Positions 7,910 to 37,872 of a stretch of DNA of 64,000 bases are shown in pieces (the stretch's first letter is position 1; every line of letters starts with the position of its first letter). The stretch is from Aphrocallistes beatrix (taxonomy: Eukaryota > Porifera > Hexactinellida > Sceptrulophora > Aphrocallistidae): assembly GCA_963281255.1 (NCBI GenBank), contig OY725504.1, positions 3,100,001 through 3,164,000 on the forward strand. Reading direction: 5' to 3'. The translations under genes and the position numbers were made by a program. Below the pieces are notes generated by a model. The model was not told the DNA's origin and did not search any database. It saw only the letters and a program-made list of their open reading frames with translations.

Positions 7910-9112
7910 TTAGAATATCTGTAGCCCATCGTCCATATCCTCCGATGCTAAAATGAGATTACCACTTCTTGTCGTAGTTAGTCCATAGGGGGAGAAGGAC
8001 TGATTTCCTACAGTGTGCAGTAGCTCTCCTTCTTCACTGTAAACCTGCACTGATTTATTGCCATAATTGCTGACTACAATGTTATTCGCTCTGTCTAGGC
8101 AGAAGAACCAAGTCCTTAATAGGGGATCAATTGGTACGATTGAGTTAAGATATTTGCCCTGCAAACTCAATAAATGAACACGGAAGGAAGAATTTAGGGA
8201 GAGAATTAGCATGTTTGTATGAGTAAATTGAACAGCTTGAGGAAAAGGAACCTTTTTATGTTCAATAAATCGTTTAAAACTGAAATTAAGATCGAGAACA
8301 GAAATTCTGCTATTCTGAAGCTCGGCTACATAGAGATCGCCATCTGGTCCTATAGCCAGTGACCGAGGACTATTGAATTCACCTTTCCCTGAACCCTGAC
8401 TCCCTACTTTCCTTATTAACTTACGAGTACTTAGCTTAAAATGAAAAATAGCACATTTCCTAATGTCTGTCACATAGATACTATTTTTATATAACAGTAT
8501 ACCCCATGGTCTGTCCAATTCATCATCTCCGAACTCACCGATGAACTCGCCAGTCATTAACACCATTTTAATACGTGAATTCAACGTATCACACACATAA
8601 ATTAACTGAGTTTCCTCATTAAATGCGATACCTTTGGGAGAATCGAATTCATCCTTCCCTTTCCCTCTCTTTTCTACAGCTACAACAGGGGTAATCATTT
8701 CCGAGTAATTCGGTAACTTATAATCTAATCTAACTAACTCACCCAATGTAATGAGTTTATTCTCCAATTCTCGACTCTCACATTCAAATTGAATGAAAAA
8801 GTTAGCAGTAGAGATTCGTAATTTGCGCAATTTCGGTTCAAATTTATCTAAGATCACCTGCTGTGCCTTCTTCAAGTCATTATCTTTGATTCTCTCAATG
8901 TGCTCTTTAGTAGATTTCAACTCTTGTTCTGTCTTGTCTCTGTTAGAAAGGAGAGTGTCGTATTCTTCACGGAATTCAGATAATTGTGTGAGGAGTGTTC
9001 GTTTACGTTCTCTCACAACATTCACAATTCGCTCGTATCTGTTTTCAATGTCAACAGCTATTGCATCAAATGGATGAGGTGGTGGTGCATTCTCAGGGAG
9101 TAGAGTGGCCAT
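7910..9112 (-). CDS. Coiled-coil/NHL-propeller protein, array copy 1 (intact)
   Basis: An intronless gene of 400 residues. Residues ~20-135 are charged heptad-like helix (VVRERKRTLLTQLSEFREEY, then repeated E/K/L) predicted to form a coiled coil. Residues ~150-400 form about six NHL blades with the signatures F.SP.GIAF, IYVCD, R.WGILLYK, IYVTDI, SPRSLAIGPDGDLYVAE and YGLTTTRSGNLI. This is the coiled-coil plus NHL half of a TRIM-NHL protein; no RING or B-box is present and none is visible upstream. Cytosolic scaffolding or ligand/RNA binding is possible by family, but the ligand is unknown. It is the array copy nearest fascin, with a propeller clearly diverged from its neighbours. A TATA-like TTTATAAG lies about 45-50 nt upstream of the ATG. 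Confidence 0.85.
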   Translation of the reverse strand: MATLLPENAPPPHPFDAIAVDIENRYERIVNVVRERKRTLLTQLSEFREEYDTLLSNRDKTEQELKSTKEHIERIKDNDLKKAQQVILDKFEPKLRKLRISTANFFIQFECESRELENKLITLGELVRLDYKLPNYSEMITPVVAVEKRGKGKDEFDSPKGIAFNEETQLIYVCDTLNSRIKMVLMTGEFIGEFGDDELDRPWGILLYKNSIYVTDIRKCAIFHFKLSTRKLIRKVGSQGSGKGEFNSPRSLAIGPDGDLYVAELQNSRISVLDLNFSFKRFIEHKKVPFPQAVQFTHTNMLILSLNSSFRVHLLSLQGKYLNSIVPIDPLLRTWFFCLDRANNIVVSNYGNKSVQVYSEEGELLHTVGNQSFSPYGLTTTRSGNLILASEDMDDGLQIF

Positions 9113-9754
9113 TCTATTCTGTTATATCGAGTTCGAATATTTTTAGACCAAAACATCTTATAAATACAAGCAACTGTAAGCTTACACCTTGTGTATCGAA
9201 TTTTAATTATATAACGTAGTTACATTTTCTCTAAACAGATAGTGTTACAATAACATCTAAGCATACATATCAGTTGACAGACACCAGTCTAGCTCCAGAA
9301 GAACACGAACTACTAAGAGATGTGAGTATGGCACATTTCATTTTAATCGTACTCTTAATCTATTAAGCAAATTCAGTCTTGAAAATGTTAATTCAACTCC
9401 TCCTCACCCAACTTAATTCTACGAGCTGTGAAGCAAAATATGCGAAAATACTTGCAATTAAACATACGTATATATTTTGATTAGCGTTTTAGAGATGCAA
9501 TTTCTGATTGTAAACCTTTTCACCTATAACTACTACGTACATAGTTATTTTACATATGAAGACTTTGCATAGACGTAGTACAGTCTTACACTTGTATACG
9601 TATGTCTAGCTAAATTATAATAAACTGAAAGCCTATGTTCCCCCATGAGCGCTGTCTCAGATCTAATAGTTTATGTTGGTCAATAATACTATAATCACAA
9701 TCACAGCACACAGATATCTATTTGTTTACTAAACAAAAATAAAATAATGAGTAG
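9113..9754. other. Spacer between array copies 1 and 2
   Basis: Contains the promoter side of copy 1 and the 3' flank of copy 2. The latter includes the AT-rich, TCACAATCACAGCACAC-like 3' block shared by the array. No gene or distinct repeat is seen. Confidence 0.45.
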
Positions 9755-10948
9755 TTAGAATATCTGGAGTCCTTGGTTAATATGACTTGATACTACGATG
9801 AGTCTACCACTTCTTGTCGTAGTTAGTCCATATGGCCAGCCTAACTGACCTTCTCCTATTGTGTGAAGTAGCTTTCCTTCTTCATTGTAAACTTGTACTA
9901 AACGCTTGGTACTAAAGCTAACTAGAATGTAATTCGCTCTGTCGAGGCAGAAAAACCGAGTCCATGAAGATTGTTCAATGGAAATAATAGATTTAAGATA
10001 TTTTCCTTGTAGATTTAATAAATGGACACGATGGAGAGAATCAAAAGATAGAATTAACAAATTGCTTTCAGTGAATTGAACATCTTGAAGAGATAAAATC
10101 GTTTTATGCTGAATGAATCGTTTGAAATTAAGACTAACATCAAGAACTGATATTCTGTTATTATTATCATCTGCTACATACAGATCACCGTCTGGTCCTA
10201 TAGCTAGTGACATAGGGACATTAAATTCACCTTTCACTGAACCCTTCTTGCCTACTTTTCTTATTAACTGACGAGTATTTATTTGAAATTGAAAAATAGC
10301 ACACTGAGATATGTCTGTTACATAAATACTGTCTTTATGTAGCAATATACCCCATGGCTTGACCAACTAATTACTTCCAAATTCGCTGATGAACTCTCCA
10401 GTCATTGACACTATTTTAATACGTGAATCGCCCATATCACACACATAAATCAATTCAGTTACTTCATCAAATGCAATACCTCTTAGTCTATTAAATCCAT
10501 CCTTCTTCCCTACAGCTACAACAGGGGCAACCATTTCAGAGTAATTCGGTAACTTACAAACCAATTTGATTAACTCACCCAAAGTACTGAGTTTATTCTC
10601 TAATTCTCTACTTTCACATTCAAATTGGATACAATAGTCAGCAGTAGAGATTCGTAATTTTCTTATTTTCTCTTCAATTTTGCTTAAGAACTCCTGCTGC
10701 ATTGTCTTCAAGTCATTCTCTTTGATTGTCTCAATGTACTCTTTAGTAGATTTCAACTCTTGTTCTGTCTTGTCTCTGTTAGAAAGGAGAGTGTCGTATT
10801 CTTCACGGAATTCAGATAATTGTGTGAGGAGTGTTCGTTTACGTTCTCTCACAACATTCACAATTCGCTCGTATCTGTTTTCAATGTCAACAGCTATTGC
10901 ATTCAATGGATGAGCTGGTGGTACATTATCAGGGAGTAGAGTGGCCAT
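9755..10948 (-). pseudogene. NHL array copy 2, one nonsense codon
   Basis: The frame runs for 398 codons, with the same coiled-coil start (MATLLPDNVPPAHP) and the same end (GLQIF) as intact copies. A single TAG at 10367-10369 replaces the GAG found in the ELVKPWGILLHK context of its paralogs (codon 194). There is no frameshift before or after it. The stop falls between the first and second blades, so the encoded product would be a coiled coil with about one blade. It could be a young pseudogene, a segregating null allele or a sequencing error. The downstream half (9755-10366) stays fully open, which argues for recent loss. Confidence 0.85.
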
Positions 10949-11365
10949 TCTATTCTACTATATAAAGTTAGAATCTTTTAAGACTGATACAATGTATAAC
11001 TACAGCTATGATGAGCATAATATAGGAATTTAATCCTCTAGTTAAGTATTCTACAAGTACATTACGAGTACGTATACTTCACAGTAGATCGTGTGGTCCT
11101 ACATATCTCAAGTACCATATAAAAGTAGCTTTGAAGTGCAGTGTGTAGTGAAAATTGAAATTTTATCAATGTACTATTCAAAAGGACAAAATATGTTGGG
11201 CAATAATCAGAAAATACGGAACTGGTACATACATGAACGGACACAGATCTAGAGTGTCTGTACAAATATTATAATTGTTATCACACAACAAAAATCTATC
11301 AAATGATTAACAATAAAGTACGCTGTCAACAATGTACATATGACATTGTAATTTTCAGAAGGAAA
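10949..11365. other. Spacer between array copies 2 and 3
   Basis: Duplicated array flank. It contains the AAGGACAAAATATGTTGGGCAATAATCA block that recurs upstream of other copies (near 15060, 28850 and 33620) and the 3' flank of copy 3. No gene is seen. Confidence 0.45.
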
Positions 11366-12565
11366 TCAGAATATCTGGAGCCCATGGTCTTTATGATCTG
11401 ACACTACGATGAGTCTACCACTTCCTGTCGTAGTTAGTCCATATGGCCAATCGAACTGACCTTCTCCTATTGTGTGAAGTAGCTCTGCTTCTTCATTGTA
11501 AACTTGTACTAAGTTATTTCCACAAAAGCTAACTAGAATGTTATTCGCTCTGTCGAGGCAGAAGAAGTAAGTCCATGAAGATGATCCAATTGAAATTAGT
11601 GATTTAAGATATTCTCCTTGTAGAGTTAATAAGTGGACACGATGGAGAGAATCATGAGATAGAATAAGCATATTGATTGTAGTGAATAGAACATCTTGAG
11701 GAAATAGAATCGTTTTATGCTGAATAAATCGTTTGAATTTAAGACTAACATCAAGAACTGATATTCTGTTATTAGCTTGTTCAGCAATATACAGATCACC
11801 ATCTGGTCCTATAGCTAGTGATCTAGGATAATTAAATTCACCTCCACCTGAACCTCTTTTCCCTACCTTCTTTATGAAGTGATGAGTATTTATTTGAAAT
11901 TGAAAAATAGCACATTGATGTACATCTGTTACATAAATAATATCTTTATGTAGCAATACACTCCATGGGCCGAGTAGTTCATTACCTCCAAACTCACTGA
12001 TGAACTCTCCAGTCATTGACACAGTTTTAACACGTGAATCATCCATATCACAAACGTAAATCAAATGAGTTTCTTCATCAAATGCAATACCTCTTGGACT
12101 ACGAAACATATCTTTCCCTTTCTTCCCTGCAGTTACAATAGGGATAACCATTTCTGAGTAATTCGGTAACTTATAATCCAATTTGACTAACTCACCCAAT
12201 GTACTGAGTTTATTCTCCAATTCCTTACTTTCAAATTCAAATTGGATGAAATAGTCAGCAGTAGAGATTCGTAATTTTCTTATTTTCTCTTCAATTTTGC
12301 TTAAGAACTCCTGCTGCATTGTCTTCAAGTCATTCTCTTTGATTCTCTCAATGTGCTCTTTGGTAGATTTCAATTCTTGTTCTGTCTTGTCTCTGTTAGA
12401 AAGGAGAGTGTCGTATTCTTCACGGAATTCAGATAATTGTGTGAGGAGTGTTCGTTTACGTTCTCTCACAACATTCACAATTCGCTCGTATCTGTTTTCA
12501 ATGTCAACAGCTATTGCATCAAATGGATGAGGTGGTGGTACATTCTCAGGAAGTAGAGTGGCCAT
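11366..12565 (-). CDS. Coiled-coil/NHL-propeller protein, array copy 3 (intact)
   Basis: A complete 399-residue paralog, intronless. The coiled coil covers residues ~20-135 and the NHL propeller ~150-399 (MFRSPRGIAF, LIYVCDMDDSRVK, GPWSVLLHK, YVTDVHQCAIF, YPRSLAIGPDGDLYIAE, WPYGLTTTGSGRLI). The N-terminal block is nearly identical in DNA to its neighbours, but the propeller is individual: blade-loop residues HQ in VTDVHQCAIF and QAN in the next blade differ from all other copies. Function is unknown beyond the fold. Confidence 0.85.
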   Translation of the reverse strand: MATLLPENVPPPHPFDAIAVDIENRYERIVNVVRERKRTLLTQLSEFREEYDTLLSNRDKTEQELKSTKEHIERIKENDLKTMQQEFLSKIEEKIRKLRISTADYFIQFEFESKELENKLSTLGELVKLDYKLPNYSEMVIPIVTAGKKGKDMFRSPRGIAFDEETHLIYVCDMDDSRVKTVSMTGEFISEFGGNELLGPWSVLLHKDIIYVTDVHQCAIFQFQINTHHFIKKVGKRGSGGGEFNYPRSLAIGPDGDLYIAEQANNRISVLDVSLKFKRFIQHKTILFPQDVLFTTINMLILSHDSLHRVHLLTLQGEYLKSLISIGSSSWTYFFCLDRANNILVSFCGNNLVQVYNEEAELLHTIGEGQFDWPYGLTTTGSGRLIVVSDHKDHGLQIF

Positions 12566-13652: not shown

Positions 13653-14852
13653 CTAGAATATCTGGAGTCCATAGTCCGGATGCTCTGATATAACAATGAG
13701 TCTTCCACTTTTTGTCGTAGTTAGTCCATATATACGGCTTAATTGACCTTTTCCTATTATGTGAAGTAGCTTTCCTTCTTCATTGTGAACTTGTACTAAG
13801 TTACTCTTACCATTGCTAACTAGAATGTTACCCGCTCTGTCGAGGCAGAAGAAGTAAGTACATAAATATGGTTCGATTGAAATAATAGATTTAAGATATT
13901 CAGCTTGTAGAGTTAATAAATGGACACGATGGAAAGAATTAAAAGATAGAATTAGCATATTGCTTGCAATAAATTGAACAGCTTGAGGAGATATAATCGA
14001 ATTATGCTGAATAAATCGTTTGAAATTAAGACTAACATCAAGAACTGATATTCTGTTATTATCATCTTCTGCTACATACAGATCACCATCTGGTCCTATA
14101 GCTAGTGACATAGGATCATTAAATTCACATTTCCGTGAACCTTTCTTGCCTACTTTCCTTACTAACTGATGAGTATTTATATCGAGTAAAAATATAGCAC
14201 ACTTTGATATGTCTGTTACATAAATCCTATTTTTATGCAGCAATATACCCCATGGCTGAACCAACTCATTACGTCCAAACTCACTGATGAACTCTCCAGT
14301 CATTGACACAATTTTAACACGTGAATCACTCATATCACACACATAAATCAATTGAGTTTCTTCATCAAATGCAATCCCTCTAGGACTACTAAACCTATCT
14401 TTCCCTTTTTTTCCTACAGCTACAACCGGGGTAAGCATTTCGGAGTAATTTGGTAACTTATAATCCAATTTGATTAACTCACCCAATTTACTGAGTTTAT
14501 TCTCCAACTCCCTACTCTCACATTCAAATCGGATGAAATGGTCAGCAGTGGACAGTTTTAACTTCTGTATATTATCTTCAATTTCTAATAACAACTTTTC
14601 TTGCATCTTTTTCAGGTCATTCTCTTTGATTCTCTCAATGTGTTCTTCAGTAGATTTCAACTCTTGTTCTGTCTTGTCTCTGTTAGAAAGGAGAGTGTCG
14701 TATTCTTCACGGAATTCAGATAATTGTGTGAGGAGTGTTCGTTTACGTTCTCTCACAACATTCACAATTCGATCGTATCTGTTTTCAATGTCAAAAGCTA
14801 TTGAATCAAATGGATGAGGTGGTGGTACATTACCAGGGAGTAGAGTGGCCAT
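13653..14852 (-). CDS. Coiled-coil/NHL-propeller protein, array copy 4 (intact)
   Basis: A complete 399-residue paralog. Its constant block shows a few unique changes (YDRIVNV and FDSIAFDI instead of YERIVNV and FDAIAVDI), and its coil from residue ~75 (LKKMQEKLLLEIEDNIQKLKLS) is the most divergent of the intact copies. Propeller signatures run from SSPRGIAF to YGLTTTKSGRLI, with loop residues SK in VTDISKCAIF. A TATATAAAA box lies at 14897-14905 on the minus strand, ~45 nt upstream of the start. Confidence 0.85.
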   Translation of the reverse strand: MATLLPGNVPPPHPFDSIAFDIENRYDRIVNVVRERKRTLLTQLSEFREEYDTLLSNRDKTEQELKSTEEHIERIKENDLKKMQEKLLLEIEDNIQKLKLSTADHFIRFECESRELENKLSKLGELIKLDYKLPNYSEMLTPVVAVGKKGKDRFSSPRGIAFDEETQLIYVCDMSDSRVKIVSMTGEFISEFGRNELVQPWGILLHKNRIYVTDISKCAIFLLDINTHQLVRKVGKKGSRKCEFNDPMSLAIGPDGDLYVAEDDNNRISVLDVSLNFKRFIQHNSIISPQAVQFIASNMLILSFNSFHRVHLLTLQAEYLKSIISIEPYLCTYFFCLDRAGNILVSNGKSNLVQVHNEEGKLLHIIGKGQLSRIYGLTTTKSGRLIVISEHPDYGLQIF

Positions 14853-16239
14853 TTTATTCTGCTATATCAAGTTAGAATCTTTTAAGGCTGAACTTGTTTT
14901 TATATAAGTGTAAGCTACGATGAGCATATATAGGAATAGTATTTTACAAACATATACTATTATACAAGTACATGTGATCCTATGTATATCAAGTATCATA
15001 TAAGTAGCTAAGAAGTGCAGTTGTAGTGTAGTAAAATGGAGGTCATTTTCGAGCTATTCAAAAAGACAAAATGCTAGGCAATAATAAAATCAAATGCAGT
15101 ATTCATAATTGAAAACTGAGAGACAAGCACAGAAAACGCGTAACTTGAGAACAAATGTACACTTCTTACCGCCTGACATCACTCATGAACATAGAAACAA
15201 TGCAGGATTGTGATAAGATCGTCCAAGTTAAGATCTCAGGGTACTCCTTTTTCAAAAAATAATCGTAGATATGCAATTGACTCCGCTTAATCGAATTAAT
15301 GTAATATGATGCATAATATATGTGCTAGAACTATTTAGGATCTGCAAGAAGTGATTGTTTAATAATTGCATCCAGTTTTCCCTCTAACTTTCGGGGGTTT
15401 GGACTTTTAATGGGGGTATAGGCAATAATCTGGAGACCCAAGCGAATTTTAGTATTATTATCCAGGGGGGTTGTAATGATTAACATTGACCATAAATAAT
15501 CCACTGCTTAAGATTTTCGGATGCGTCTTTCTCCATGTTTGATAGAAAAGGAGATGGTGTATATGTATTAGCTGGGAATGTTAAATCGACGCATTGAATT
15601 GCGGCACATGAATTAAGTCAAATTTGATGGTAGATATATTGAATTGTATTTGAGTCATGTTGCTAATAGATGGAGTAACAGGTGCATCCACTCGGAAAGA
15701 GGTACAGCGAAATACGACCACATTTTTGAAGTTGGTAAACACCATATCAAAGCAATTTAGACTGATTCATTATTTCCTTTATTATATCTTATCGGAAGCT
15801 AATATACAAATTGGTTCGCGAATTAATTCAGAGCAGGTGAAAGTTTCCTATTATCCATTCTACATTCAACAAAGCTTCAGTGCTCGCTGTACCAGCGGCA
15901 CCGCGTACGCCACCACTGAGCATAATTTGAGGAATATTTTCGAAAGAATTGTGTTTAATCAATGTCGATAGATTGAATTGATAAACAGACTGGATTGCCA
16001 TTATATTTTTCTTAAAAATACGTGCACCAGGACCAAACAATATTTTACTCTTCATCTGGAATTACAAACTAATTGAAGGGTTCCGTTCACTCATAAACAG
16101 AGGCAGATCTAGAAGTATCTGCATAGATATTATGATTGTTATCACACAGCAAAAATCTATCAGCTGATTAACAATAAAGTACTATATGTTGTTAACTACC
16201 TAAATATAACAATATAACATACGTATGTCAATAAGGAAA
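14853..16239. other. Spacer with segmental duplication
   Basis: Contains the copy 4 promoter flank and a block at about 15635-15930 that is a diverged duplicate of ~28520-28830 (shared GATATATTGAATTGTATTTG, GGTGCATCCACTCGGAAAG and ACCAGCGGCACCGCG-like segments). This shows that array spacers were duplicated with the genes. No conserved ORF is seen. Confidence 0.5.
14897..14905 (-). promoter_or_regulatory. TATA-like box of array copy 4
   Basis: TATATAAAA on the minus strand, 45-53 nt before the ATG at 14852. Equivalent TATA-like sequences occur at the same distance in several copies, within a conserved 5' flank that also has AGCTTRTACTTATA and TATATGCTCAT motifs. Confidence 0.45.
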
Positions 16240-16412
16240 TTATAATATCAGGAGTCCATGGTCTTCATGATTTGATGCTACGATGAGTCTACCACTTCTT
16301 GTCGTAGTTAGTCCATATGGCCAACCAAACTGACCTCCTATCGTGTGAAGTAGCTCTCCTTCTTCATTGTAAACTTGTACTAAGTTCTTGTTAGTAAAGC
16401 TAACAAAAACTG
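16240..16412 (-). pseudogene. C-terminal fragment of an NHL array gene
   Basis: Only the last ~55 codons of the propeller remain (NLVQVYNEEGELLHTIGG, WPYGLTTTRSGRLIV, ending GLLIL instead of GLQIF). Homology stops abruptly at about 16412 and is followed by unrelated repeat sequence (AACAAATATTGTCAGCTTCCA..., similar to 44462-44540). A truncated duplicate. Confidence 0.8.
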
Positions 16413-17006: not shown

Positions 17007-18212
17007 TTAGAATATCTGGAATCCATGGTCTTCGTGTTTTGATACTACAATGACTCTACCACTTCTTGTCGTAGTTAGTCCAAGTGGATAGACTAACTGA
17101 CCTTCTCCTATTGTGTGAAGTAGCTTTCCTTCTTCATTGTAAACTTGTAATAGGTTCATGTCACCATTGCTAATTAGAATGTTATTCGCTCTGTCAAGAC
17201 AGAAAAACCAAGTCCATGAAGATGATTCGATGAAAATAATGCATTTAAGATATTCTCCTTGTAGAGTTAATAAATGGACACGATGGGGAGAATAAAAAGA
17301 TAGAATGAACATATTGCTTTTAGTGAATAGGACATCCACAGGATATAACATCGTTTCATGCTGAATAAATCGTTTGAAATTAAAATCAACATCAAGAACT
17401 GATATTCTGTTAGTACGATCTTCAGCTACATACAGATCACCATCTGGTCCTATAACTAGCGATCTAGGAATATTAAATTCACCTTTCCCTGAACCCTGTT
17501 TCCCTACTGTTCTTATTAACTGATGAGTATTTAGATGAAATTGAAAAATAGCACACTGATCTATGTCTGTTACATAAATACTGTCTTTATGCAGCAATAT
17601 ACCCAATGGCTTAACCAATTCATTACTTTCAAACTCACTGATGAACTCTCCAGTCATTGATACAATTTTAATACGTGAATTCCAGCTATCACACACATAA
17701 CTCAATTGAGTTTCTTCATCAAATGCAATACCTCTTGGATTATCGAACTCATCTTTCCCTTTCCCTCTCTTCCCTACAGCTACAACAGGGCTAACGATTC
17801 CAGAGTAATTCGGTAACTTATAATCCATTTTAATTAACTCACCCAATGTACTGAGTTTATTTTCCAATTCTCTACTTTCACATTCAAATTGGATGAAATA
17901 GTCAGCAGTTGAGATTCGTAATTTTCTTATTTTGTCTTCAATTTTGCTTAAGAACTCTTGCTGCATTGTCTTCAAATCATTCTCTTTGATTTTCTCAATC
18001 TGCTCTTTAGTATAGTTCAACTCTTGTTCTGTCTTGTCTCTGTTGGAAAGGAGAGTGTCGTATTCTTCACGGAATTCAGTTAATTGTGTGAGGAGTGTTC
18101 GTTTACGTTCTCTCACAACATTCACAATTCGCTCGTATCTGTTTTCAATGTCAACAGCTATTGCATCAAATGGATGGGGTGGTGGTACATTCTCAGGGAG
18201 TAGAGTGGCCAT
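17007..18212 (-). CDS. Coiled-coil/NHL-propeller protein, array copy 5 (intact)
   Basis: A complete 401-residue paralog, intronless. The coiled coil contains KEQIEKIKENDLKTMQQEF, with small unique changes in the constant block (LTEFREEY). The propeller starts at KDEFDNPRGIAF and ends GFQIF; loop residues are DQ in VTDIDQCAIF and DRT in the following blade. The two extra residues relative to copies 3 and 4 come from GKRGKGKDEF before blade 1. TATAAAAGG lies at 18256-18264 upstream. Confidence 0.85.
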   Translation of the reverse strand: MATLLPENVPPPHPFDAIAVDIENRYERIVNVVRERKRTLLTQLTEFREEYDTLLSNRDKTEQELNYTKEQIEKIKENDLKTMQQEFLSKIEDKIRKLRISTADYFIQFECESRELENKLSTLGELIKMDYKLPNYSGIVSPVVAVGKRGKGKDEFDNPRGIAFDEETQLSYVCDSWNSRIKIVSMTGEFISEFESNELVKPLGILLHKDSIYVTDIDQCAIFQFHLNTHQLIRTVGKQGSGKGEFNIPRSLVIGPDGDLYVAEDRTNRISVLDVDFNFKRFIQHETMLYPVDVLFTKSNMFILSFYSPHRVHLLTLQGEYLKCIIFIESSSWTWFFCLDRANNILISNGDMNLLQVYNEEGKLLHTIGEGQLVYPLGLTTTRSGRVIVVSKHEDHGFQIF

Positions 18213-21498: not shown

Positions 21499-22698
21499 TT
21501 AGAATATCTGGAGTCCATGATCTTCATTATCTGACACTAGGATGAGTCTACCACTTCTTGTCGTAGTTAGTCCATATGGCCAGTAAAACTTACCATTTTC
21601 TATTGTGTGAAGTAGCTCTCCTTCTTTATTGTAAACTTGTACTAAGTTCTTGTCACTAATGCTGACTAGAATGTTATTCGCTCTGTCGAGGCAGAAGAAG
21701 TAAGTCCATGAAGATTATTCAATTGAAATTAGTGATTTAAGATATTCTCCTTGTAGAGTTAATAAGTGGAGGCGATGGAGAGAATCAAAAGATAGAATTA
21801 GCAAATTGTTTTCAGTAAATTGAACATCTTGAGGAGATAGAATCGTTTTATGCTGAATAAATCGTTTGAAATTAAGACTAACATCAAGGACTGATATTCT
21901 GTTATTATCTTCATCTGCTACATACAGATCACCATCTGGTCCTATAGCTAGTGATCTAGGATAATCGAATTTACCTTTCTCTGAACCTTCCTTGCCTACT
22001 TTCCTTACTAACTGATGAGTATTTAGATGAAATTGAAAAATAGCACGCTGAGTTATGTCTGTTACATAAATACTGTCTTTATATAGCAATATACCCCATG
22101 GCTTAACCAATTCCTTACTTCCAAACTCACTGATGAATTCCCCAGTCATTGACACTATTTTAACACGTGGATTACCCATATCACACACATATATCAATTG
22201 AGTTTCTTCATTAAATGCAATACCTCTTGGATTATTGAATTGATCTTTCCCTCTCTTCCCTACAGCTACAACAGGGATAACCATTCCCGAGTAATTCGGT
22301 AGTTTATAATCCAATTTGATTAACTCACCCAATGTACTGAGTTTATTCTCCATTTCCCTACTTTCACATTCAAATTGGATGAAATAGTCAGCAGTGGAGA
22401 TTCGTAATTTTCTTATTTTCTCTTCAATTTTGCTTAAGAAGTCCTGCTGCATTGTCTTCAAGTCATTCTCTTTGATTCTCTCAATGTGCTCTTTAGTAGA
22501 TTTCAACTCTTGTTCTGTCTTGTCTCTGTTAGAAAGGAGAGTGTCGTATTCTTCACGGAATTCAGATAATTGTGTGAGGAGTGTTCGTTTACGTTCTCTC
22601 ACAACATTCACAATTCGCTCGTATCTGTTTTCAATATCAACAGCTATTGCATCAAATGGATGAGGTGGTGGTACATTATCAGGGAGTAGAGTGGCCAT
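21499..22698 (-). pseudogene. NHL array copy 6, one nonsense codon
   Basis: 1,200 nt, exactly the length of the intact 399-codon copies. A TAA at 21715-21717 (codon 328) replaces the TCA that encodes the first Ser of SSWTYFFCLDRANN in paralogs. The frame then stays open to GLQIF and the normal TAA at 21499. The truncated product would lack the last one to two blades and could not close the propeller. One C-to-A change explains the loss, so it is recent, polymorphic or a sequencing error. Confidence 0.85.
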
Positions 22699-25074: not shown

Positions 25075-25260
25075 ACCATACAGATCACTATCTGGTGCTA
25101 TAACTAGTGATCTAGGAGTCATACATTGACCTTTTCCTGAAGCTCCTCTCCCTACCTTCTTTAATAACTGATGAGTACTTGTTTGAAATTGCAAAATAGC
25201 ACATTGATATATGTCTGTTACATAAATACTGTCTTTATGTAGTACTTGTGCCCCAGTCAA
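25075..25260 (-). pseudogene. Internal fragment of an NHL array gene
   Basis: About 60 codons from the middle of the propeller: VLHKDSIYVTDIYQCAILQF, THQLLKKVGRGASGKG and PRSLVIAPDSDLYGS. It has no coiled coil and no C-terminal blades. It is bounded by the gypsy remnant on one side and by a GCGCGCTTCGC element arm on the other. Confidence 0.75.
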
Positions 25261-26364: not shown

Positions 26365-27564
26365 TTATAATATTTGGAGTCCATGGTCTTTATGATCTGA
26401 CACCACGATGAGTCTACCACTTCTTGTCGTAGTTAGTCCATATGGCCGGCCTAAATGACTTTCTCCTATTGTGTGAAGTAGCTTTCCTTCTTCATTGTAA
26501 ACTTGTACTAAGTTCTTGTTACTAAAGCTAACTAGAATATTATTCGCTCTGTCGAGGCAGAAGAAGTGAGTCCATGAAGATGATTCTTCTGAAATTACTG
26601 ATTTAAGATATTCTCCTTGTAGAGTTAATAAATGGACACGATGGAGAGAATTAAGAGACAGAATTAGCAAATTGCTTTCAGTGAATCGGACATCTTGAGG
26701 AGATAGAATCGTTTTATGCTGAATAAATCGTTTAAAATTAAGGCAAACATCAAGAACTGATACTCTGTTATTATTATTTTCTGCTACATACAGATCACCA
26801 TCTGGTCCTATAGCTAGTGATCTAGGAATATTAAATTCACTTTTCCTTGAGCCCAATTTCCCTACTTCCCTTACTAACTGATGAGTATTTAGATGAAATT
26901 GAAAAATAGCACACTGATCTATGTCTGTTACATAAATACTGTCTTTATGTAGCAATATACCCCATGGCTGAACCAATTCATTATTTCCAAACTCACTGAT
27001 GAACTCTCCAGTCATTGATACAGTTTTAATACGTGAATTTAACATATCGCACGCATAAATCAGTTGAGTTTCTTCATCAAATGCAATACCTCTTGGTTCA
27101 CTGAATTTAAATTTCCCTTCCTTCCCTACAGCTACAACAGGGGTAACAATTTCTGAGTAATTCGGTAACTTATAATCCAATTTGATTAACTCACCCAATG
27201 TACTGAGTTTATTCTCCAATTTTCTACTCTCACATACAAATTGGATACAATAGTTGGCAGTAGAGATTCGTAATTTTCTTATTTTCTCTTCAATTTTGCT
27301 TAAGAACTCCTGCTGCATTGTCTTCAAGTCATTCTCTTTGATTGTCTCAATGTGCTCTTTAATAGATTTCAATTCTTGTTCTGTCTTGTCTCTGTTAGAA
27401 AGGAGAGTGTCGTATTCTTCACGGAATTCAGATAATTGTGTGAGGAGTGTTCGTTTACGTTCTCTCACAACATTCACAATTCGCTCGTATCTGTTTTCAA
27501 CGTCAACAGCTATTGTATCAAATGGATGAGGTGGTGGTACATTATCAGGGAGTAGAGTGGCCAT
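26365..27564 (-). CDS. Coiled-coil/NHL-propeller protein, array copy 7 (intact)
   Basis: A complete 399-residue paralog, intronless, with the constant N-terminal block (MATLLPDNVPPPHPFDTIAV) and a coiled coil to residue ~135. The propeller starts at KFSEPRGIAF; the other signatures are LIYACDMLNSRIK, QPWGILLHK, IPRSLAIGPDGDLYVAE and RPYGLTTTRSGRLI, with a terminal GLQIL. Loop residues are DQ in VTDIDQCAIF and NNNN in the next blade. It is the intact copy farthest from fascin; all later minus-strand copies are broken. Confidence 0.85.
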   Translation of the reverse strand: MATLLPDNVPPPHPFDTIAVDVENRYERIVNVVRERKRTLLTQLSEFREEYDTLLSNRDKTEQELKSIKEHIETIKENDLKTMQQEFLSKIEEKIRKLRISTANYCIQFVCESRKLENKLSTLGELIKLDYKLPNYSEIVTPVVAVGKEGKFKFSEPRGIAFDEETQLIYACDMLNSRIKTVSMTGEFISEFGNNELVQPWGILLHKDSIYVTDIDQCAIFQFHLNTHQLVREVGKLGSRKSEFNIPRSLAIGPDGDLYVAENNNNRVSVLDVCLNFKRFIQHKTILSPQDVRFTESNLLILSLNSLHRVHLLTLQGEYLKSVISEESSSWTHFFCLDRANNILVSFSNKNLVQVYNEEGKLLHTIGESHLGRPYGLTTTRSGRLIVVSDHKDHGLQIL

Positions 27565-31803: not shown

Positions 31804-33007
31804 TTAGAATATCTGAGGGCCATAGCCTTCATGATCTGATACTACGATGAGTCTACCACTTCTTGTCGTAGTTAGTCCACATGGCCAGACCAACTGACCT
31901 TTTCCTATTGTGTGAAGTAGCTTTCCTTCTTCATTGTAAACTTGTACTAAGTTCTTGTTACTAATGCTGACTAGAATGTTATTCGCTCTGTCGAGGCAGA
32001 AGAACCAAGTCCATAAATATGATTCAATTGAAATGAGCGAGTTAAGATATTTTCCTTGTAAAGTTAATATATGGACACGATGGAGAGAATCATCAGATAG
32101 AAGTAGCATTTTATTACCAGAAAATTGAACAGCTTGAGGAGATAGAACCATTTCATGTTGAATAAATCGCTTGAAATTAAGACTATCATCAAGGACAGAT
32201 ATTCTGTCATTATTATTTTCTGCTACATACAGATCACCATCTGGTCCAATAGCTAGTGACTTAGGAACATTAAATTCGCCTTTCTCTGAACCCTTCTTGC
32301 CTACTTTCTTTATTAACTGATGAGTATTTATTTGAAATTGAAAATAGCACACCAGTTTATGTCTGTTACATAAATACTGTCTTTATGTAGCAATATACCA
32401 CATGGCTTAACCAATTCCTTATTTCCAAACTCACTGATGAATTCTCCAGTCATTGATACAATTTTTACACGTGAATCACCCATATCACACACATAAATCA
32501 ATTGAGTTTCTTCATCGAATGCAATGCCTCTAGGACTGCCAAACCTATCTTTCCCTTTCCCTCTCTTCCTTATTGCAACAATAGGGGTAACCATTTCTGA
32601 GTATTTCGGTAGATTATAGTCCAATTTGATTAACTCACCCCATGCACTGAGTTTATTCTCCAATTCTCTACTCTCACATACAAATTGGATGGAAAATTTG
32701 CAGTAGAGATTCGTAATTTTCGTATTTTGTCCTCAATTTTACTTAAGAACTCCTGCTGCATTGTCTTCAAGTCATTCTCTTTGATTCTCTCAATGTACTC
32801 TTTAGTAGATTTCAACTCTTGTTCTGTCTTGTCTCTGTTAGAAAGGAGAGTGTCGTATTCTTCACGGAATTCAGATAATTGTGTGAGGAGTGTTCGTTTA
32901 CGTTCTCTCACAACATTCACAATTCGCTCGTATCTGTTTTCAATGTCAACAGCTATTGTATCAAATGGATGGGGTGGTGGTACATTCTCAGGGAGTAGAG
33001 TGGCCAT
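31804..33007 (-). pseudogene. NHL array copy 8, two frameshifts
   Basis: Full-length by homology, from MATLLPENVPPPHPFDTIAV to GPQIF, but the frame breaks twice. A one-base loss near 32690 after RISTAN shifts the end of the coil, and a one-base loss near 32342 (an A missing in the run before the CAIF codons) shifts blade 2. Correcting both would give about 402 codons, as in intact copies. Without correction the product ends after 125 codons. The first ~60 codons remain identical to those of intact genes. Confidence 0.85.
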
Positions 33008-33124: not shown

Positions 33125-33275
33125 AGAGGCGTAGCCAACTCAATTTTTATGGTGCGGCAATTCCGTGAGAGAGTTGCGGCACCCAATGCTAATTAGTGAA
33201 TTTTAGTGGGCACAGCCTTTGCGGTTGTGGCCTAGGTCGAATGTGTCGCACCCTAGCCACGCCTCTGCCTGTAAT
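33125..33275. mobile_element. GAGGCGTAGCC-ended miniature element
   Basis: CAGAGGCGTAGCCAACTC at the left and CTAGCCACGCCTCTG at the right are inverted ends of a ~150-bp non-coding segment. Such termini are common on hAT-like non-autonomous elements in animals; the assignment is tentative. Confidence 0.5.
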
Positions 33276-34304
33276 ATAAATTCTAAGCTAAATGCTGTAT
33301 CTGCCATACCGCTTCCTCCGGCCCTGCATTCAGATTTACTATGATTGTACTAACCAAAAGATTAGAAACACAATTTTTAGGTTAATTGATCGTCTAAAAT
33401 ATGAAATGATAGATTTTACTGTTTATCATACTGCTTAAGCACTCAAACATGCAAGCATATTTCTGTATAATTATTAACATGGGATAGCAAAACAGGACCA
33501 GTATTTGAACACTCCGTTAGCTGGGATTGTATCTTCCTATTATATCAAGTAGCATGCGTATATAAGTACATACGTAGCTACAAATGAACTGTGTAGGGTT
33601 AGGTGTTCCAATTATTTTCGCGTATAAAAAATAAAACAATTTGTTGAGCAATCAATAAAGGTTGAATACAGAGACATGACTAATTCCAGGACGGGACGGA
33701 ACGGAACGGAAATCAGGAATCTTGATTCGCCTCGTTCGACCGGGGGTGTCCTGGGTGTCCAGACACCCACTGCGTCCTGTTTTATCATATTGTACAATAT
33801 ATATCCCTCCATAAATGGACACCCACTTTCAGAGAAATCCCTCTTAGGACACCCACTGCCGTTAAAACATGGCGCCGGTAAATGTGTAATAATGGAGGAA
33901 GTGGGAGCTTTTAGGTGTGGAAATATGATGAGGGGGCCCGAAGGCCGAATTACATTTGAAAGGAGGAATGGAGCTCGAAACCACAGGTGTCAAGGAGGCT
34001 TTTGAGGAAGATAATTAAAGTAGTCACGTGTTGTCGTGGTATTTTAGACACATGACAATGTAATCATGGGATTTTGCACTACATACAGCTGTAGCTTATG
34101 TAAAGCTTGTACTGTCTGTTGTTGTCTTGGTTTTTAGTTGACAAAATTTCAGAGGACGAAATTTCCAGGTGATGAAACTTCCGGGATTAGTGCTGAATAG
34201 AGCGCAAAATTGAAAGATGTGGAAAGAAGAGACAGGATCTGTAAAATGTGAAACAGATAACAATTTCATCAGATGATCCTTTTGCAATATTAATAACCTT
34301 GAAA

Positions 34305-34480
34305 TCAATGAAAAAGTTTACAGTAGTGATGCGCAAGTCTGTATTTTTTTCTCAATTTAAGAAATAATTTCTCCTGCATTGTCTTCAAGTCATTATAATC
34401 GTTTAAGGAGTTTTCGTTTACATAATATTCCCAATTCGCTCGTATCTGATTTCAATATTAAAAGATATCGCATCAAATAG
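34305..34480 (-). pseudogene. N-terminal fragment of an NHL array gene
   Basis: Degenerate remnant of the start and coil: FDAIS-NIEIRYERIGNI-like codons near 34435-34475 and the CTCCTGCATTGTCTTCAAGTC block near 34370-34390. It resembles the diverged copy at 36668-37872 most. Unlike the other copies, its constant block is heavily mutated and partly deleted, so it is an older relic. Confidence 0.65.
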
Positions 34481-34838
34481 ATAATATTTATATTAATGAA
34501 TTATAATTTTTTTAGCAACCAATCTCGCCACAAACTGACCTGTCTTTCAAAGGAGAGACTGGTGTCCTGGGGGTAGCAGGAAGCCGCTTCGAAGCTTGAA
34601 GTGTCGCAAGGTTGTGAGTTTGCGAAATATGCACAGATGATTAGGAGGAATACAGGTGTGAATAGTCGATTCACTTCATTGTCATGTTACATTGATAATG
34701 CTACTGTTTGGATATGGAAACTTAAGAATAATGTCTAACCGACTAATATCTTAAAATAATCAACAAAAAATTCGATTTCGATACAACTGGATTTAACTGT
34801 GCTAACTCTATTGTTTTACCAAATTCATTTACAAAGTA

Positions 34839-34972
34839 GGGCATGCCTAATTTCCGGGACGGGACGGGTTAAGATACCTAATTTCCGGGACGGGATGCCG
34901 TCCCGTCCCTGAAATAAGGTATCTAGATTTTCCGGGACGGTCCCGTCCCGTCCCGGGAATTAGGCATGCCCC
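34839..34972. mobile_element. GGGCATGCC-family MITE, copy 4
   Basis: GGGCATGCCTAATTTCCGG ... GGGAATTAGGCATGCCCC, 134 bp, with an 8-bp duplication ACAAAGTA at 34831-34838 and 34973-34980. Contains the modules GGGTTAAGATACC and TATCTAGATTTTCCGGGACGG. Confidence 0.85.
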
Positions 34973-35009
34973 ACAAAGTAATCCTATAATTACACCACAT
35001 AGTAATCTA

Positions 35010-36143
35010 TCAGTTCACTACCAAAATATAGTCTAGAAAATTGAAGAGAGTCATACCTTCTTCATTGTAAACTTGTACTAAGTGCTTGTCACAAATGCTA
35101 ACTAGAATGTTATTCGCTCTGTCGAGGCAGAAGAACCAAGTCCATGAAGATGATTCAATGGAAATAATAGATTTAAGATATTTTCCTTGTAGAGTTAATA
35201 AATGGACACGATGGAGAGAATCAAAAGATAGAATTAGCATATTGCTCTCAGTGAATTGAACATCTTGAGGAGATAGAATCGTTTTATGCTGAATAAATCG
35301 TTTGAAATTAAGACTAACATCAAGAACTGATATTCTGTTATTCTTCACTTCTGCTACATACAGATCACCATCTGGTCCTATAGCTAGTGATCTAGGAATA
35401 TTAAATTCACCTTTCTTTGAACCTTTCTTGCCTACTTTCCTTATTAACTGATGAGTATTTATTTGAAATTGAAAAATAGCACACTGGTTTATGTCTGTTA
35501 CATAAATACTGTCTGTATGTAGCAATATACCCCATGGCTTAACCAACTCATTATTTCCAAGCTCACTGATGAACTTTCCAGCCATTGACACAATTTTAAT
35601 ACGTGAATTACCCGTATCACACACATAAATCACTTGAGTTTCTTCATCAAATGCAATACCTCTTGGATCATCGAACTCATCTTTCCCTTTCCCTTCCTTC
35701 CCTATAGCTATAAAAGGGGCAACCATTTCTGAGTAACTCGGTAACATAGAATCCAATTTGACTAACTCACCCAATGTACTGAGTTTATTCTCCAAATATC
35801 TACTCTCACATTCAAATTGGATGAAATAGTCAGCAGTGGAGATTCGTAATTTTCGTGTTTTCTCTTCAATTTTGCTTAAGAACTCCTGCTGCATTGTCTT
35901 CAAGTCATTCTCTTTGATTCTCTCAATGTGCTCTTTAGTAGATTTCAACTCTTGTTCTGTCTTGTCTCTGTTGGAAAGGAGAGTGTCGTATTCTTCACGG
36001 AATTCAGATAATTGTGTGAGGAGTGTTCGTTTACGTTCTCTCACAACATTCACAATTCGCTCGTATCTGTTTTCGATGTCAACAGCTATTGCATCAAATG
36101 GATGAGGTGGTGGTGGTACATTATCAGGAAGTAGAGTGGCCAT
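35010..36143 (-). pseudogene. NHL array copy 9, C-terminus deleted
   Basis: Open for 377 codons, with one extra Pro in MATLLPDNVPPPPHPF. The normal sequence ends at VQVYNEEG. A deletion joins this point to the array 3' flank (AGAGAGTCATACCTTCTTC), removing the HTIG...GLTTTRSGRLIV...GLQIF segment, and 13 unrelated residues follow. The last strands that close the propeller are missing, so a stable fold is doubtful. It could still be transcribed, since its TATAAAAGG (36187-36195) and promoter flank match those of intact copy 5. Confidence 0.8.
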
Positions 36144-36667
36144 TCTATCCTATTTTGTTATAAGTTAGAATATTTTAAGGTTGAAACCTTTTATAAGTAC
36201 AAGCTATGGATGAACATATATAGAAATTCAATCCAATGGTTAGTTTCTACAATTTTGCATAATCTACACGTATTAAATTAGTTGTGTCAATATACAGTCG
36301 ACTCCGCTTAATATGGTTACATCAGCCAGAGGACATTATAGCCCGATTAAGCGGAGAACCCTATTAACCGAAAATAATTTGTGTTAGCTTCTATGTATGA
36401 GAGCTATTCCGGTCCTGCTAAAAGTGGCCCTGTTAAGCGGAGTTGACCGTATATCAAGTAGCATATATACGAGTATACGTAGCTAAGAAATGAATTATAA
36501 AATGTAACTACCTAATGTGATCAAATTATTCGTTACTATTACATTTAATATATCCTGACGAGAAATGTGTTAAGCTCATACAAATGCAATCAATAACGAC
36601 TTAGAAAATTGTAAAAGAAGCATAAACTCATCAAAGATAAAAAATTGACAGTATATATGATCCCTTT
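36144..36667. other. Spacer between array copies 9 and 10
   Basis: Contains the copy 9 promoter flank and a complete Tigger-like MITE at 36295-36449. The remainder is AT-rich with no gene. Confidence 0.5.
36295..36449. mobile_element. Tigger/pogo-like MITE, complete
   Basis: CAGTCGACTCCGCTTAATA ... TTAAGCGGAGTTGACCG, 155 bp, flanked by TA on both sides. Terminal sequence and TA target match Tigger/pogo-group elements. Its interior provides the undisturbed reference for the split copy at 2616-2960. Confidence 0.8.
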
Positions 36668-37872
36668 TCAAAGATAGAACATTTTGAGACCGTTCTTCTT
36701 TTGATTCGAAACAATGAGTTTTCCACTTTGTGTAGTAGTCATTCCATATGGACAGTGTAACTCATTTGCTCCGATGTTGCGAAGTAGCTTTTCTTTCTCA
36801 TCGTAGACTTGTACTAGTCGTCATTCCAGAGGCTGACTAAAATATTATTCCCACTGTCTAGACAGAAGAAGTAAGTCCATGATTGGGATTCAATGGAAAT
36901 TATTGATTTGAGATATTTTCCTTGTAGAGTCAATACATGGATACGATAGGGAGATTCAAGATTGAGAATAAGCATGTTAGCTGTGAATTTAACATCGACT
37001 GGAGATTGAATCCTTTTATGTTGGATAAATCTTTTGAAATTGAGATTAATGTCAAAAACTGACAGCCTGTTATTATTCTCTTCTGCTACATACAGAGCAC
37101 TATCTGGTCCTATAGCTAGTGATCTAGGGGTACTAAATTCGCCTCTCCCTGAACCTTGTCTACCTACTTTCTGTATTAATTGATGGGTGCTTATATGAAA
37201 CTGGAAAATAGCGCACTTAATCCAGTCTGTTACATAAATACTTTTTTTAAAATAGAATTACACCCCATGGTTTATCTAAATCATCATGATCGAAATCACT
37301 GATGAGGTCTCCAGTTTTTGATACAATTTTAACACGTGAATTCTGCATATCACACGCATAAATCAGTTGAGTTTCTTCATCATAGGCAATTCCTCTTAAT
37401 GCACATACCTCAACTTTCTCTTTTTCCTTCTGCCTTCCAGTGACAATAGGGGTAACTATTTCCGAGTAAATCGGTGGTTTACAATCTACTTTTACTAACT
37501 CACCCAATTTACTGAGTTTTGTTTCCAATTCGATGGTTTTACAATCAAATTGGATAGAATAGTTAGTAGTAGAGGTGCGTAAATCTTGTATTTTTTTCTC
37601 AATTTCAAATAATAATTTCTGTTGCATTGTCTTCAGGTCATTCTCTTTGATACCTCAATATACTCTTTAGTATATTTCAACTCTTGTTCTGACTTATCTC
37701 TGTTAGAAAGGAGAGTGTCGTATTCTTCACGGAATTCAGATAATTGTGTGAGGAGTGTTCGTTTACGTTCTCTCACAACATTCACAATTCGCTCGTATCT
37801 GTTTTCAATGTCAACAGCTATTGCATCAAATGGATGAGGTGGTGGTACATTCTCAGGGAGTAGAGTGGCCAT
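36668..37872 (-). pseudogene. NHL array copy 10, diverged and frameshifted
   Basis: The most divergent array copy. The coil after residue ~65 and the propeller differ strongly from other copies (CALRGIAYDEETQLIYACD, VSKTGDLISDFD, SGKLIVSNQKKNGLKMF). Frameshifts occur near 37650 (a one-base loss in the coil), near 37245 (ATG-proximal AAAATAGAAT replaced sequence in blade 2) and probably near 36825. Yet from the ATG to about codon 60 the DNA is nearly identical to that of intact copies. This contrast suggests that the 5' end was overwritten by gene conversion after the rest had decayed. Confidence 0.8.

Follow-up and report, generated by a model that had tools for sequence, protein, structure and literature searches.

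A coiled-coil NHL propeller gene family with a positively selected loop face in a genome whose markers fit a glass sponge

Why do genes that share a nearly uniform 5' end encode propellers that differ from copy to copy? This question is raised by an array between positions 7910 and 37872 of the window, i.e., the whole stretch of 64,000 nucleotides that was analysed. A tblastn search of the window with one of its copies (E up to 1e-3) revealed ten full or nearly full copies of a gene encoding a coiled coil and an NHL propeller (CC-NHL), all on the minus strand, as an earlier note on this DNA had claimed (at least ten on one strand). Five of them are intact open reading frames (ORFs) of 399-401 amino acids, and five are broken. 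The earlier note had also counted three fragments, of which two were found as isolated pieces. The genes appear to be intronless. The copies and fragments, together with a further NHL gene in the window, are the following (evidence in brackets):

7910-9112, minus strand: intact CC-NHL gene, 400 amino acids (ORF, tblastn)
9755-10948, minus strand, tblastn match from 9764: CC-NHL copy interrupted by a single stop codon (ORF, tblastn)
11366-12565, minus strand: intact CC-NHL gene, 399 amino acids (ORF, tblastn)
13653-14852, minus strand: intact CC-NHL gene, 399 amino acids, source of the structure model (ORF, tblastn, AlphaFold model)
16246-16410, minus strand: isolated fragment, propeller end (tblastn)
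17007-18212, minus strand: intact CC-NHL gene, 401 amino acids (ORF, tblastn)
21502-22698, minus strand: CC-NHL copy with a single in-frame stop, ORF of 327 amino acids (ORF, tblastn)
25078-25245, minus strand: isolated propeller fragment carrying the YQ pair (tblastn)
26365-27564, minus strand: intact CC-NHL gene, 399 amino acids (ORF, tblastn)
31807-33007, minus strand: CC-NHL copy with a frameshift (tblastn)
35010-36143, minus strand: CC-NHL copy ending early, 377 amino acids (ORF, tblastn)
36677-37872, minus strand: degenerate CC-NHL copy with a frameshift, 5' block still 96% identical (tblastn)
44915-45727, plus strand: ORF encoding an NHL propeller of a different subfamily, 47% identical to L030 across the propeller, no adjoining coiled-coil part found (ORF, Pfam)

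The variable residues that had been read from the propellers are all present, namely the nine pairs in the motif VTDIxxCAIF (RK, SQ, HQ, SK, DQ, TQ, NW, NQ, YQ) and the seven strings of the next blade (LQNS, DNNN, QANN, DDNN, DRTN, EDNN, VKNN). The HQ pair is preceded by VTDV instead of VTDI, and the TQ pair is followed by R. The NW pair lies in 32340-32690, the YQ pair in the fragment at 25078, and an additional window copy reads VTDWIK at the site of the variable pair.

The product of the gene at 13653-14852 was modelled, and its parts, all on the minus strand, are given below together with the upstream region:

14475-14813: predicted long helix (coiled coil), residues 14-126 (AlphaFold model, pLDDT of the block 41-83 here)
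13656-14426: six-bladed NHL beta-propeller, residues 143-399 (Pfam NHL above cut-off, model, Foldseek)
14115-14210: blade 2 to blade 3, with the selected residues 215, 216, 237 and 246 (site models)
14613-14852: 5' block, codons 1-80, near-identical DNA among 19 copies including broken ones (alignment)
14853-14972: proximal promoter region, the sole upstream flank common to the copies (alignment)

The model (mean pLDDT 80) contains 23 strands and a two-residue strand at 143-144, which, judged from the strand order, probably closes the propeller like a velcro, so that six four-stranded blades are predicted. The Pfam NHL family (PF01436) was matched with 52.7 and 60.1 bits by two window genes and with 51.4-71.2 bits by three others (cut-off 20), while WD40-type propeller models matched these five proteins only below their cut-offs. 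The best Foldseek match of the propeller is the NHL domain of TRIM71 (TM 0.80), and the nearest folds among solved structures are those of lncRNA-bound TRIM71, of Thin and of Lin41. The predicted helix at residues 14-126 would correspond to the coiled coil of TRIM proteins. When five CC-NHL proteins were scanned with Pfam, neither RING nor B-box was seen, in agreement with the earlier note; no B-box was found within C18:2.84-3.25 Mb either, the nearest among the matches listed being at C18:3371108. Neither HET nor NACHT was found in the same five scans. Of 19 copies, 14 have an in-frame stop at a distance of 6-12 bases upstream of the ATG, which counts against a further coding exon there. Inspection by eye gave no evident signal peptide at the N-terminus.

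The array is part of a much larger family. At least 283 loci in the genome of 100.5 Mb match the coiled coil or NHL; this number is the union of two ranked searches that are not independent (at least 148 and at least 143 loci). Broken copies and fragments are counted in it, and some TRIM-type genes may be as well. An estimate of the family size from the overlap of both searches was dropped, because they are ranked and not independent. B-box matches, by comparison, number 24 genome-wide; NACHT matches number at least 94. The clade of the array (the focal clade) extends beyond the window over C18:2.84-3.25 Mb, and solitary members lie on C1 and on C16. The genome also contains a TRIM-type gene with a B-box (25.5 bits, cut-off 24.1), a RING-like match (21.8 bits, below the cut-off of 27) and NHL.

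Are the differences between the propellers the result of selection? Site models were applied to 51 genes of five subfamilies (focal 12, C3 17, C6 10, C14sub 8, C14b 4), which are named after the location of most members; C14sub has further members on C1, C3 and C19, and one C3 member lies on C6. The models did not include single genes, the four-member group L002, L003, L004 and L006, the focal copy L020, which is truncated, and, from the larger C14-type group of 15 genes, L035, L076 and L077; codon columns filled in less than 80% of the rows were removed. The gene-wide dN/dS of the focal subfamily is 0.40, every 20-codon window of its propeller lies between 0.33 and 0.70, and dN exceeds dS in the propeller in none of 66 focal pairs. 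The gene average, however, mainly reflects purifying selection on the fold and is for this reason uninformative: the largest M2a class comprises 49-71% of the propeller sites with a dN/dS of 0.07-0.4, and therefore the fold is maintained. A dN/dS well below 1 throughout had been named beforehand as an outcome that would speak against diversification; this is indeed seen for the gene average and the focal 20-codon windows, but not at the level of sites, nor in 25-codon windows of C6, C14sub and C14b, which reach values above 1. With the propeller alone, M8 assigned 6-12% of the sites to a class with a dN/dS of 2.7-18 across the five subfamilies, and 2dlnL against M8a was 57 (focal), 109 (C3), 173 (C6), 161 (C14sub) and 76 (C14b).

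For focal, C6 and C14sub, the propeller was also divided into six segments with their own trees, and the summed M2a-M1a 2dlnL was 41 (p 5e-5), 148 and 119, respectively, compared to a maximum of 3.9 when the null was simulated 20 times per subfamily (60 runs in total). The focal value dropped from 65 to 41 with separate trees and one of six segments was devoid of signal (0.15). Intragenic exchange may inflate the site tests to some extent. In the coiled coil, one of four subfamilies gave a signal (C3, 2dlnL 21.8, two sites); the focal coiled coil had a weak one (7.15, p 0.03) with zero sites above 0.95. A single pair of TRIM-type genes of the same genome, used as control, had a dN/dS of 0.36 in the NHL region. 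A mutation hotspot or targeted mutagenesis was rejected as the main cause, because synonymous divergence up to two codons from selected sites differs little from that of the remaining codons (0.370 versus 0.327, 0.145 versus 0.140, 0.112 versus 0.133, 0.071 versus 0.054). Inside the selected codons the counted synonymous divergence is higher (0.600, 0.286, 0.279, 0.126), which is taken to be a putative path-counting effect in multiply hit codons. A diversity-generating retroelement was likewise discarded, since neither the third-base pattern nor the abundance of Trp codons matches what is generally known of its signature.

The selected sites are confined to one end of the predicted propeller. 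At P>0.95, 79 sites were found, of which 72 map onto a focal residue: 55 lie in D-A or B-C loops and 17 in the adjoining strand ends (first three residues of A, last two of B), while A-B loops, C-D loops, C strands and D strands contain none. Counted as 34 distinct positions, this placement has a p of about 1e-9; the face was assigned from the strand topology of the model. Thus, the proposal that the variable residues occupy blade loops on one propeller face agrees with the model, and scattering through the propeller core, which had been named as speaking against it, was not observed, with none of the 72 sites at the opposite end. Selected positions coincide between subfamilies in ten of ten comparisons (p 0.0014 to 3e-10), and residues 215 and 246 are selected in all five. 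Trp is enriched 16.9-fold at selected sites (four subfamilies, C3 excluded), Arg 2.4-fold and Lys 1.3-fold. The net charge, calculated for these sites only, ranges from -3 to +5, with averages between -1.0 and 1.5 in the subfamilies. The string of residues at its subfamily's selected sites is distinct in each of the 51 genes.

The 5' end behaves differently. In the focal clade its synonymous divergence is five-fold lower than that of the propeller and uncorrelated with it. Synonymous distances of block and propeller correlate in C14sub (Spearman 0.69, Mantel p 0.016) but not in the other three groups compared (-0.04, 0.17, 0.16; p 0.55, 0.19, 0.26). The coiled-coil start had been called invariant; it is constant, and already so in the DNA, but constraint on the protein alone does not explain this, as synonymous sites are homogenised too. 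These patterns suggest that gene conversion keeps the 5' end uniform. The earlier note had considered that broken relatives could donate sequence; in the comparisons made here, no sign emerged that they supply any to the propeller. The alternative that the synonymous sites of the block are constrained by a DNA or RNA element within it, e.g., a regulatory site or a small-RNA target, is rather doubtful. It would agree with the start of the block near the ATG, with upstream flanks that do not align between copies past -120, and with the retention of the block in degenerate copies. However, a merely slow block would yield correlated distances, and the block shows no excess of codon agreement at residues shared between subfamilies (60 of 172, against 300 of 731 for the propeller).

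Taken together, the family probably represents a germline-encoded repertoire of cytosolic, oligomeric recognition proteins with a diversified propeller face. In the proposed mechanism, a long helical coiled coil, which is likely to oligomerise, would precede the NHL propeller of six blades, and the putative binding surface, diversified by recurrent positive selection, would consist of its D-A and B-C loops. Every gene would display its own paratope-like patch rich in Trp, Tyr, Cys and Arg, and the ligands would most likely be proteins of pathogens or of other non-self. New copies would arise by duplication with loss, and exchange among them may hold the coiled-coil part uniform, so that all could couple to one common output, while the divergence of the propellers would escape homogenisation. 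A partner protein would carry out the response; an RBCC-NHL TRIM and the numerous NACHT proteins of the genome are candidates. A role in immunity or in self/non-self recognition would be in line with this scheme.

Relaxed constraint, with mere drift of the loops while the tandem array decays, or an artefact of alignment or recombination is highly improbable. Half of the ten nearly full window copies are indeed broken, but the positively selected class persists with separate segment trees and exceeds the simulations in the three groups tested, the fold is maintained, and the A-B and C-D loops contain no selected site. It is quite unlikely that the copies are diversified RNA-binding regulators that recognise different RNAs, e.g., of viruses or transposons, with their top face, like Brat, Lin-41 or Mei-P26. 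NHL domains are described to bind RNA on a positively charged top surface (PMC9070667), and the nearest solved folds include lncRNA-bound TRIM71. Nevertheless, the net charge at the selected sites scatters around zero, and Trp is by far more enriched than Arg or Lys.

The repertoire might also police self versus non-self after fusion of cells or syncytia, like fungal HET-D/HET-E, instead of sensing pathogens, which we regard as unlikely. To our knowledge, known allorecognition systems use fewer loci than were found here, which counts against it. In its favour, no signal peptide is evident, and the same loops are selected as in fungal NWD genes. Furthermore, the genome has 19 homeodomain matches, DIX matches without a DEP match nearby and no Wnt match (though control genomes gave none either), and these indirect markers fit a glass sponge, a group for which syncytial tissue is described (PMC10280926). 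It is a speculative and somewhat improbable extension that an animal lineage, probably a syncytial glass sponge, independently evolved the fungal-type solution, with hundreds of cytosolic antibody-like propellers, a d-a/b-c paratope, a coiled-coil handle kept by conversion, and heterokaryon-type (allo)recognition together with defence in a shared cytoplasm.

Constant coiled coils for avidity and variable beta-domain loops for recognition are characteristic of TRIM5-alpha, finTRIM and other group 2 TRIMs, which may thus work as is proposed for CC-NHL proteins. However, they have B30.2/SPRY instead of NHL and contain RING and B-box; the fast evolution of group 2 has been described (PMC2533329). 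TRIM-NHL proteins (TRIM2/3/32/71, Brat, Mei-P26, Thin) share the order of coiled coil and six-bladed NHL and give the best fold matches, whereas the scanned CC-NHL proteins are devoid of RING and B-box, the family is massively expanded and its loop face is positively selected. Relatives that have lost RBCC parts are described (PMC3503706). The fungal NWD/HNWD genes (Podospora anserina het-d, het-e, het-r), WD40 genes of allorecognition, are likewise a multigene family with a beta-propeller sensor. Concerted evolution of this family is described, as is positive selection on codons of the d-a loop and of the b-c turn on one face (PMC1805685, PMC12222747); the latter is matched by the 55 of 72 sites in equivalent loops. 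In contrast, HNWD proteins combine WD40 with HET and NACHT, ten genes face at least 283 loci in an animal-like genome, the blades within one CC-NHL protein are not near-identical (by eye), and it is the repeats that are homogenised in fungi and the 5' coiled coil here. Large NLR repertoires are similar in being expanded families with long single open frames, but no NACHT was seen in the five CC-NHL proteins scanned.

NHL propellers of animals are known mainly as RNA- or protein-binding modules of TRIM-type regulators, and here they form the variable part of a large repertoire. The selected loop positions match those of fungal WD40 allorecognition, a convergence of two propeller superfamilies. 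A diversified NHL repertoire in an animal was not described in the titles and abstract beginnings of the open-access literature searched; the accessible text of a coral transcriptome paper contains "NHL repeat" once (PMC11639872). The family is a candidate recognition system in an apparently early animal lineage, and a natural library of propeller positions that tolerate diversification, which might be used to design binders. A mechanism also becomes testable, in which a putatively oligomerising part kept uniform by conversion is opposed to a recognition face held apart by selection.

Some features of the gene starts should be added. Two matches on C16 had been considered to be free-standing 5' cores, but L057 turned out to be an entire gene in a degenerate state, with 86-88% identity in the core and 67-73% over most of the remainder; L056 consists of the core only. 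An approximate query for a 14-base gene-start pattern, two bases off, gave ten matches in the window with two mismatches versus 0.63 expected from shuffles. A TATAWAW box lies 41-101 bases before the ATG in ten of 11 intact focal genes examined (raw count).

The array at 7910-37872 consists of one gene type, a coiled coil followed by an NHL propeller (CC-NHL). The window search found ten full or nearly full copies and two fragments, every one of them in minus orientation. Half of the ten copies are uninterrupted single ORFs of 399-401 aa; stops or frameshifts disrupt the other half. The earlier note had the ten copies and the single strand right, but claimed three fragments; the residue pairs and loop strings that it had read are present in the sequence. 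The clade of these genes, here called focal, extends along contig C18 from 2.84 to 3.25 Mb (the window itself is C18:3100001-3164000), and 12 intact members were used for the focal analyses.

Per-site dN/dS had been proposed as a check of the view that the propeller is a diversified recognition face. The averages alone would speak against it, with focal pairwise dN/dS values of 0.40 for the whole gene and 0.39 for the propeller (residues 143-399), and dN exceeded dS in none of 66 propeller pairs. However, our own implementation of the codon site models M0, M1a, M2a, M7, M8 and M8a (F3x4, FastTree topology, propeller codons only) revealed a selected class in five CC-NHL subfamilies. Two of these, C14sub and C14b, are not fully independent, since identities of >=50% link them within a larger group.

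Tests of M8 versus M8a for the propellers of the focal clade and of four subfamilies named after the contig of most members
focal: 12 genes, 256 codons; 2dlnL 57; selected class 12% of sites, dN/dS 2.7
C3: 17 genes, 262 codons; 2dlnL 109; selected class 6% of sites, dN/dS 4.0
C6: 10 genes, 266 codons; 2dlnL 173; selected class 10% of sites, dN/dS 7.4
C14sub: 8 genes, 286 codons; 2dlnL 161; selected class 9% of sites, dN/dS 9.3
C14b: 4 genes, 275 codons; 2dlnL 76; selected class 9% of sites, dN/dS 18

Two controls covered focal, C6 and C14sub. When each of six propeller segments was given its own tree, the summed M2a-M1a 2dlnL was 41 for focal (p 5e-5; single segments 0.15 to 15.7), 148 for C6 and 119 for C14sub, and simulations that lacked positive selection (20 alignments per subfamily, 60 in all) never exceeded 3.9. 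Synonymous divergence is not raised beside the selected codons, which argues against a mutational hotspot. For the coiled-coil codons the test was non-significant in C6 (p 0.32) and C14sub (p 0.45), where any listed sites stem from models that lack significance; it gave p 0.03 without any site above 0.95 in focal, and was significant in C3 (2dlnL 21.8, two sites).

Five CC-NHL proteins were scanned with Pfam, and the only matches above the cut-off were NHL repeats and, in three of them, DUF5128, another six-bladed propeller model. RING, B-box and NACHT were not found in these five, and all 24 B-box matches of the genome lie outside the array, in line with the earlier statement that RING and B-box are missing here. 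An AlphaFold model of the gene at 13653-14852 (minus strand), built from 11 rows that were all window proteins (mean pLDDT 80, pTM 0.63), has a single long helix at residues 14-126, followed by 23 strands and a two-residue strand at 143-144; the modelled strands were grouped into six blades. Foldseek ranked the NHL domains of TRIM71, Thin, Lin41, TRIM2 and Brat highly, with TRIM71 bound to lncRNA first (TM 0.80 when normalised to target length, identity 24%).

Sites with P>0.95 number 79 (18 focal, 12 C3, 22 C6, 16 C14sub and 11 C14b). When the subfamilies are aligned jointly, 72 of them have a focal counterpart residue and seven lie in insertions relative to focal. The mapped sites lie in B-C loops (29), D-A loops (26), the opening three residues of A strands (12) and the closing two residues of a B strand (5), while A-B loops, C-D loops, C strands and D strands, together 110 of 256 residues, contain none. 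Collapsed to distinct positions they number 34, of which 26 lie strictly within D-A or B-C loops versus 10 expected (p 1e-9). By the topology of a four-stranded blade, both loops are predicted to share one propeller face, and with 55 of 72 sites in them the expectation of variable blade loops on one face is supported. This face is presumably the top, or RNA, side of NHL domains. RNA binding on the top surface is described for NHL domains (PMC9070667).

All ten comparisons between subfamilies show far more coincidence of selected positions than chance would give (p 0.0014 to 3e-10). Residues 215 and 246 belong to the selected set of all five subfamilies, and 216, 237, 373 and 390 to that of four. 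In four subfamilies (C3 left out) selected sites are enriched for Trp (16.9-fold), Tyr (2.7), Cys (2.5) and Arg (2.4), and depleted of Val, Pro and Ala. The residue string at a subfamily's selected sites differs from gene to gene across all 51 genes, and its net charge ranges from -3 to +5.

A similar pattern has been reported for the WD40 repeats of the fungal receptors HET-D/HET-E, in which selected codons 7/9 are placed in the d-a loop, and codons 25/27 in the b-c turn (PMC1805685; PMC12222747). The loop positions agree with those of the CC-NHL genes, as does a selected pair flanking a conserved residue, e.g., 246 and 248 around Pro247. The domain content differs and rules out membership in that family; by analogy, CC-NHL proteins would work like these propellers from outside it. 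No signal sequence or membrane segment is evident by eye, and the proteins are probably cytosolic oligomeric receptors. With its many propeller faces, a coiled-coil oligomer would bind with avidity to a ligand that is repetitive or abundant, and the common coiled coil would allow every copy to use one output.

The first ~80 codons are nearly constant. Focal synonymous divergence is 0.02-0.10 in windows of codons 1-60 and 0.18-0.53 beyond, and CDS positions 80-160 are 98% identical among nineteen copies, degenerate ones included. Low blocks are also present at codons 26-50 of C3 (0.066 versus 0.15-0.43 in the propeller) and C6 (0.011 versus 0.09-0.43, and low again, at 0.049, in codons 101-125); in C14sub the effect is weaker and spread over the whole coiled coil. 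The block/propeller ratios are 0.19 (focal), 0.32 (C3), 0.26 (C6) and 0.50 (C14sub), and block distances correlate with propeller distances in C14sub but not in the other three. In C3 and C14sub the 5' end tends towards higher third-position GC; the trend is less clear in C6 and absent from focal. On contig C16, a whole degenerate copy (L057:4626-5609) and a lone 5' core (L056:5322-5462) have cores 83-88% identical to focal genes, the rest being mostly 67-73% identical or missing. The best reading of the block is gene conversion confined to where copies stay similar, with a local constraint on the DNA as the less likely alternative. A tandem pair of TRIM-type genes (C3:484800-497300; single ORFs of 633 aa) has the same gradient, with dS rising from 0.084 in the first 200 codons to 0.363 in the NHL part; 5' homogenisation may therefore be general among tandem genes of this genome. 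A TRIM-type gene at C3:494300-497300 has B-box and NHL above the cut-off and a RING-like match below it.

An in-frame stop 6-12 bases upstream of the ATG in 14 of 19 copies makes a hidden upstream coding exon unlikely. The 5' flanks of the 19 copies do not align past about -120, and past the stop codon identity among 11 copies drops to 44-51%. Of the genes examined, 10/11 focal, 8/10 C6, 6/8 C14sub, 5/17 C3 and 2/4 C14b have a TATAWAW box at 40-110 bases upstream, as raw counts in A+T-rich DNA. In several focal copies TTCTAAC occurs within about 35 bases 5' of the start codon, with CAG immediately ahead of that codon; this branch-point-like and acceptor-like pair, absent from some intact copies, could serve cis or leader trans-splicing.

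The neighbours at 46000-56700 are long single ORFs of housekeeping type (by eye actin-related protein, ADRM1-like, FAF2/UBX-like, long-chain acyl-CoA synthetase and methyltransferase), and the genome looks intron-poor. Wnt has no match in the genome, with a model silent in control genomes too; DIX has two matches, neither with a DEP match nearby, TGF-beta 5 and the homeodomain 19. A fibrillar-collagen end is present, and COX1 on contig C28 reads through 11 TGA codons. Glass sponges are described as lacking wnt and dishevelled, with syncytial tissue and numerous tandem genes of a single exon (PMC10280926; PMC10282587), which the markers and long ORFs seem to resemble; a word search of both main texts gave no mention of NHL. 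Between 38900 and 43410, proteins that look by eye like multi-helix membrane proteins form a small family, nearly identical in part and with differing ends:

39013-40191, plus strand, multi-helix membrane-like protein by eye, no family in the Pfam scan
42444-43406, minus strand, multi-helix membrane-like protein by eye
41300-41842, minus strand, neighbour of this family, Pfam match to Solute_trans_a below the cut-off

An intact 353-aa ORF at 1168-2229 resembles a mariner-like transposase by eye, and a 116-aa ORF that looks similar to it adjoins the isolated 5' fragment of L056. At L057:6989-10000 there is an open frame of >1,000 aa with tandem repeats (MNLPKNQRISKQIQVP...).

Genome searches with the N-terminal 143 residues and with the NHL model gave at least 150 matches each, which joined by distance into at least 283 loci on 20 contigs, broken copies counted (genome: 100.5 Mb, 28 contigs). 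Among the matches listed, many occupy one open frame of roughly 400-450 codons, and identity to the focal N-terminus outside the clade is about 24-37%, except for two short C16 matches (61-65%). Four NHL matches at C12:4254386-4264612 have equal scores and a spacing of exactly 3,380 bases, which would fit either a tandem array of very recent origin or a repeat in the assembly. NACHT has at least 94 matches genome-wide (176 first-look candidates, 94 scored), many of them within one open frame of roughly 1,100-1,200 codons and spread over many chromosomes; they form a second large cytosolic receptor-like expansion, and some interleave with CC-NHL arrays at 6.08-6.27 Mb of C3.
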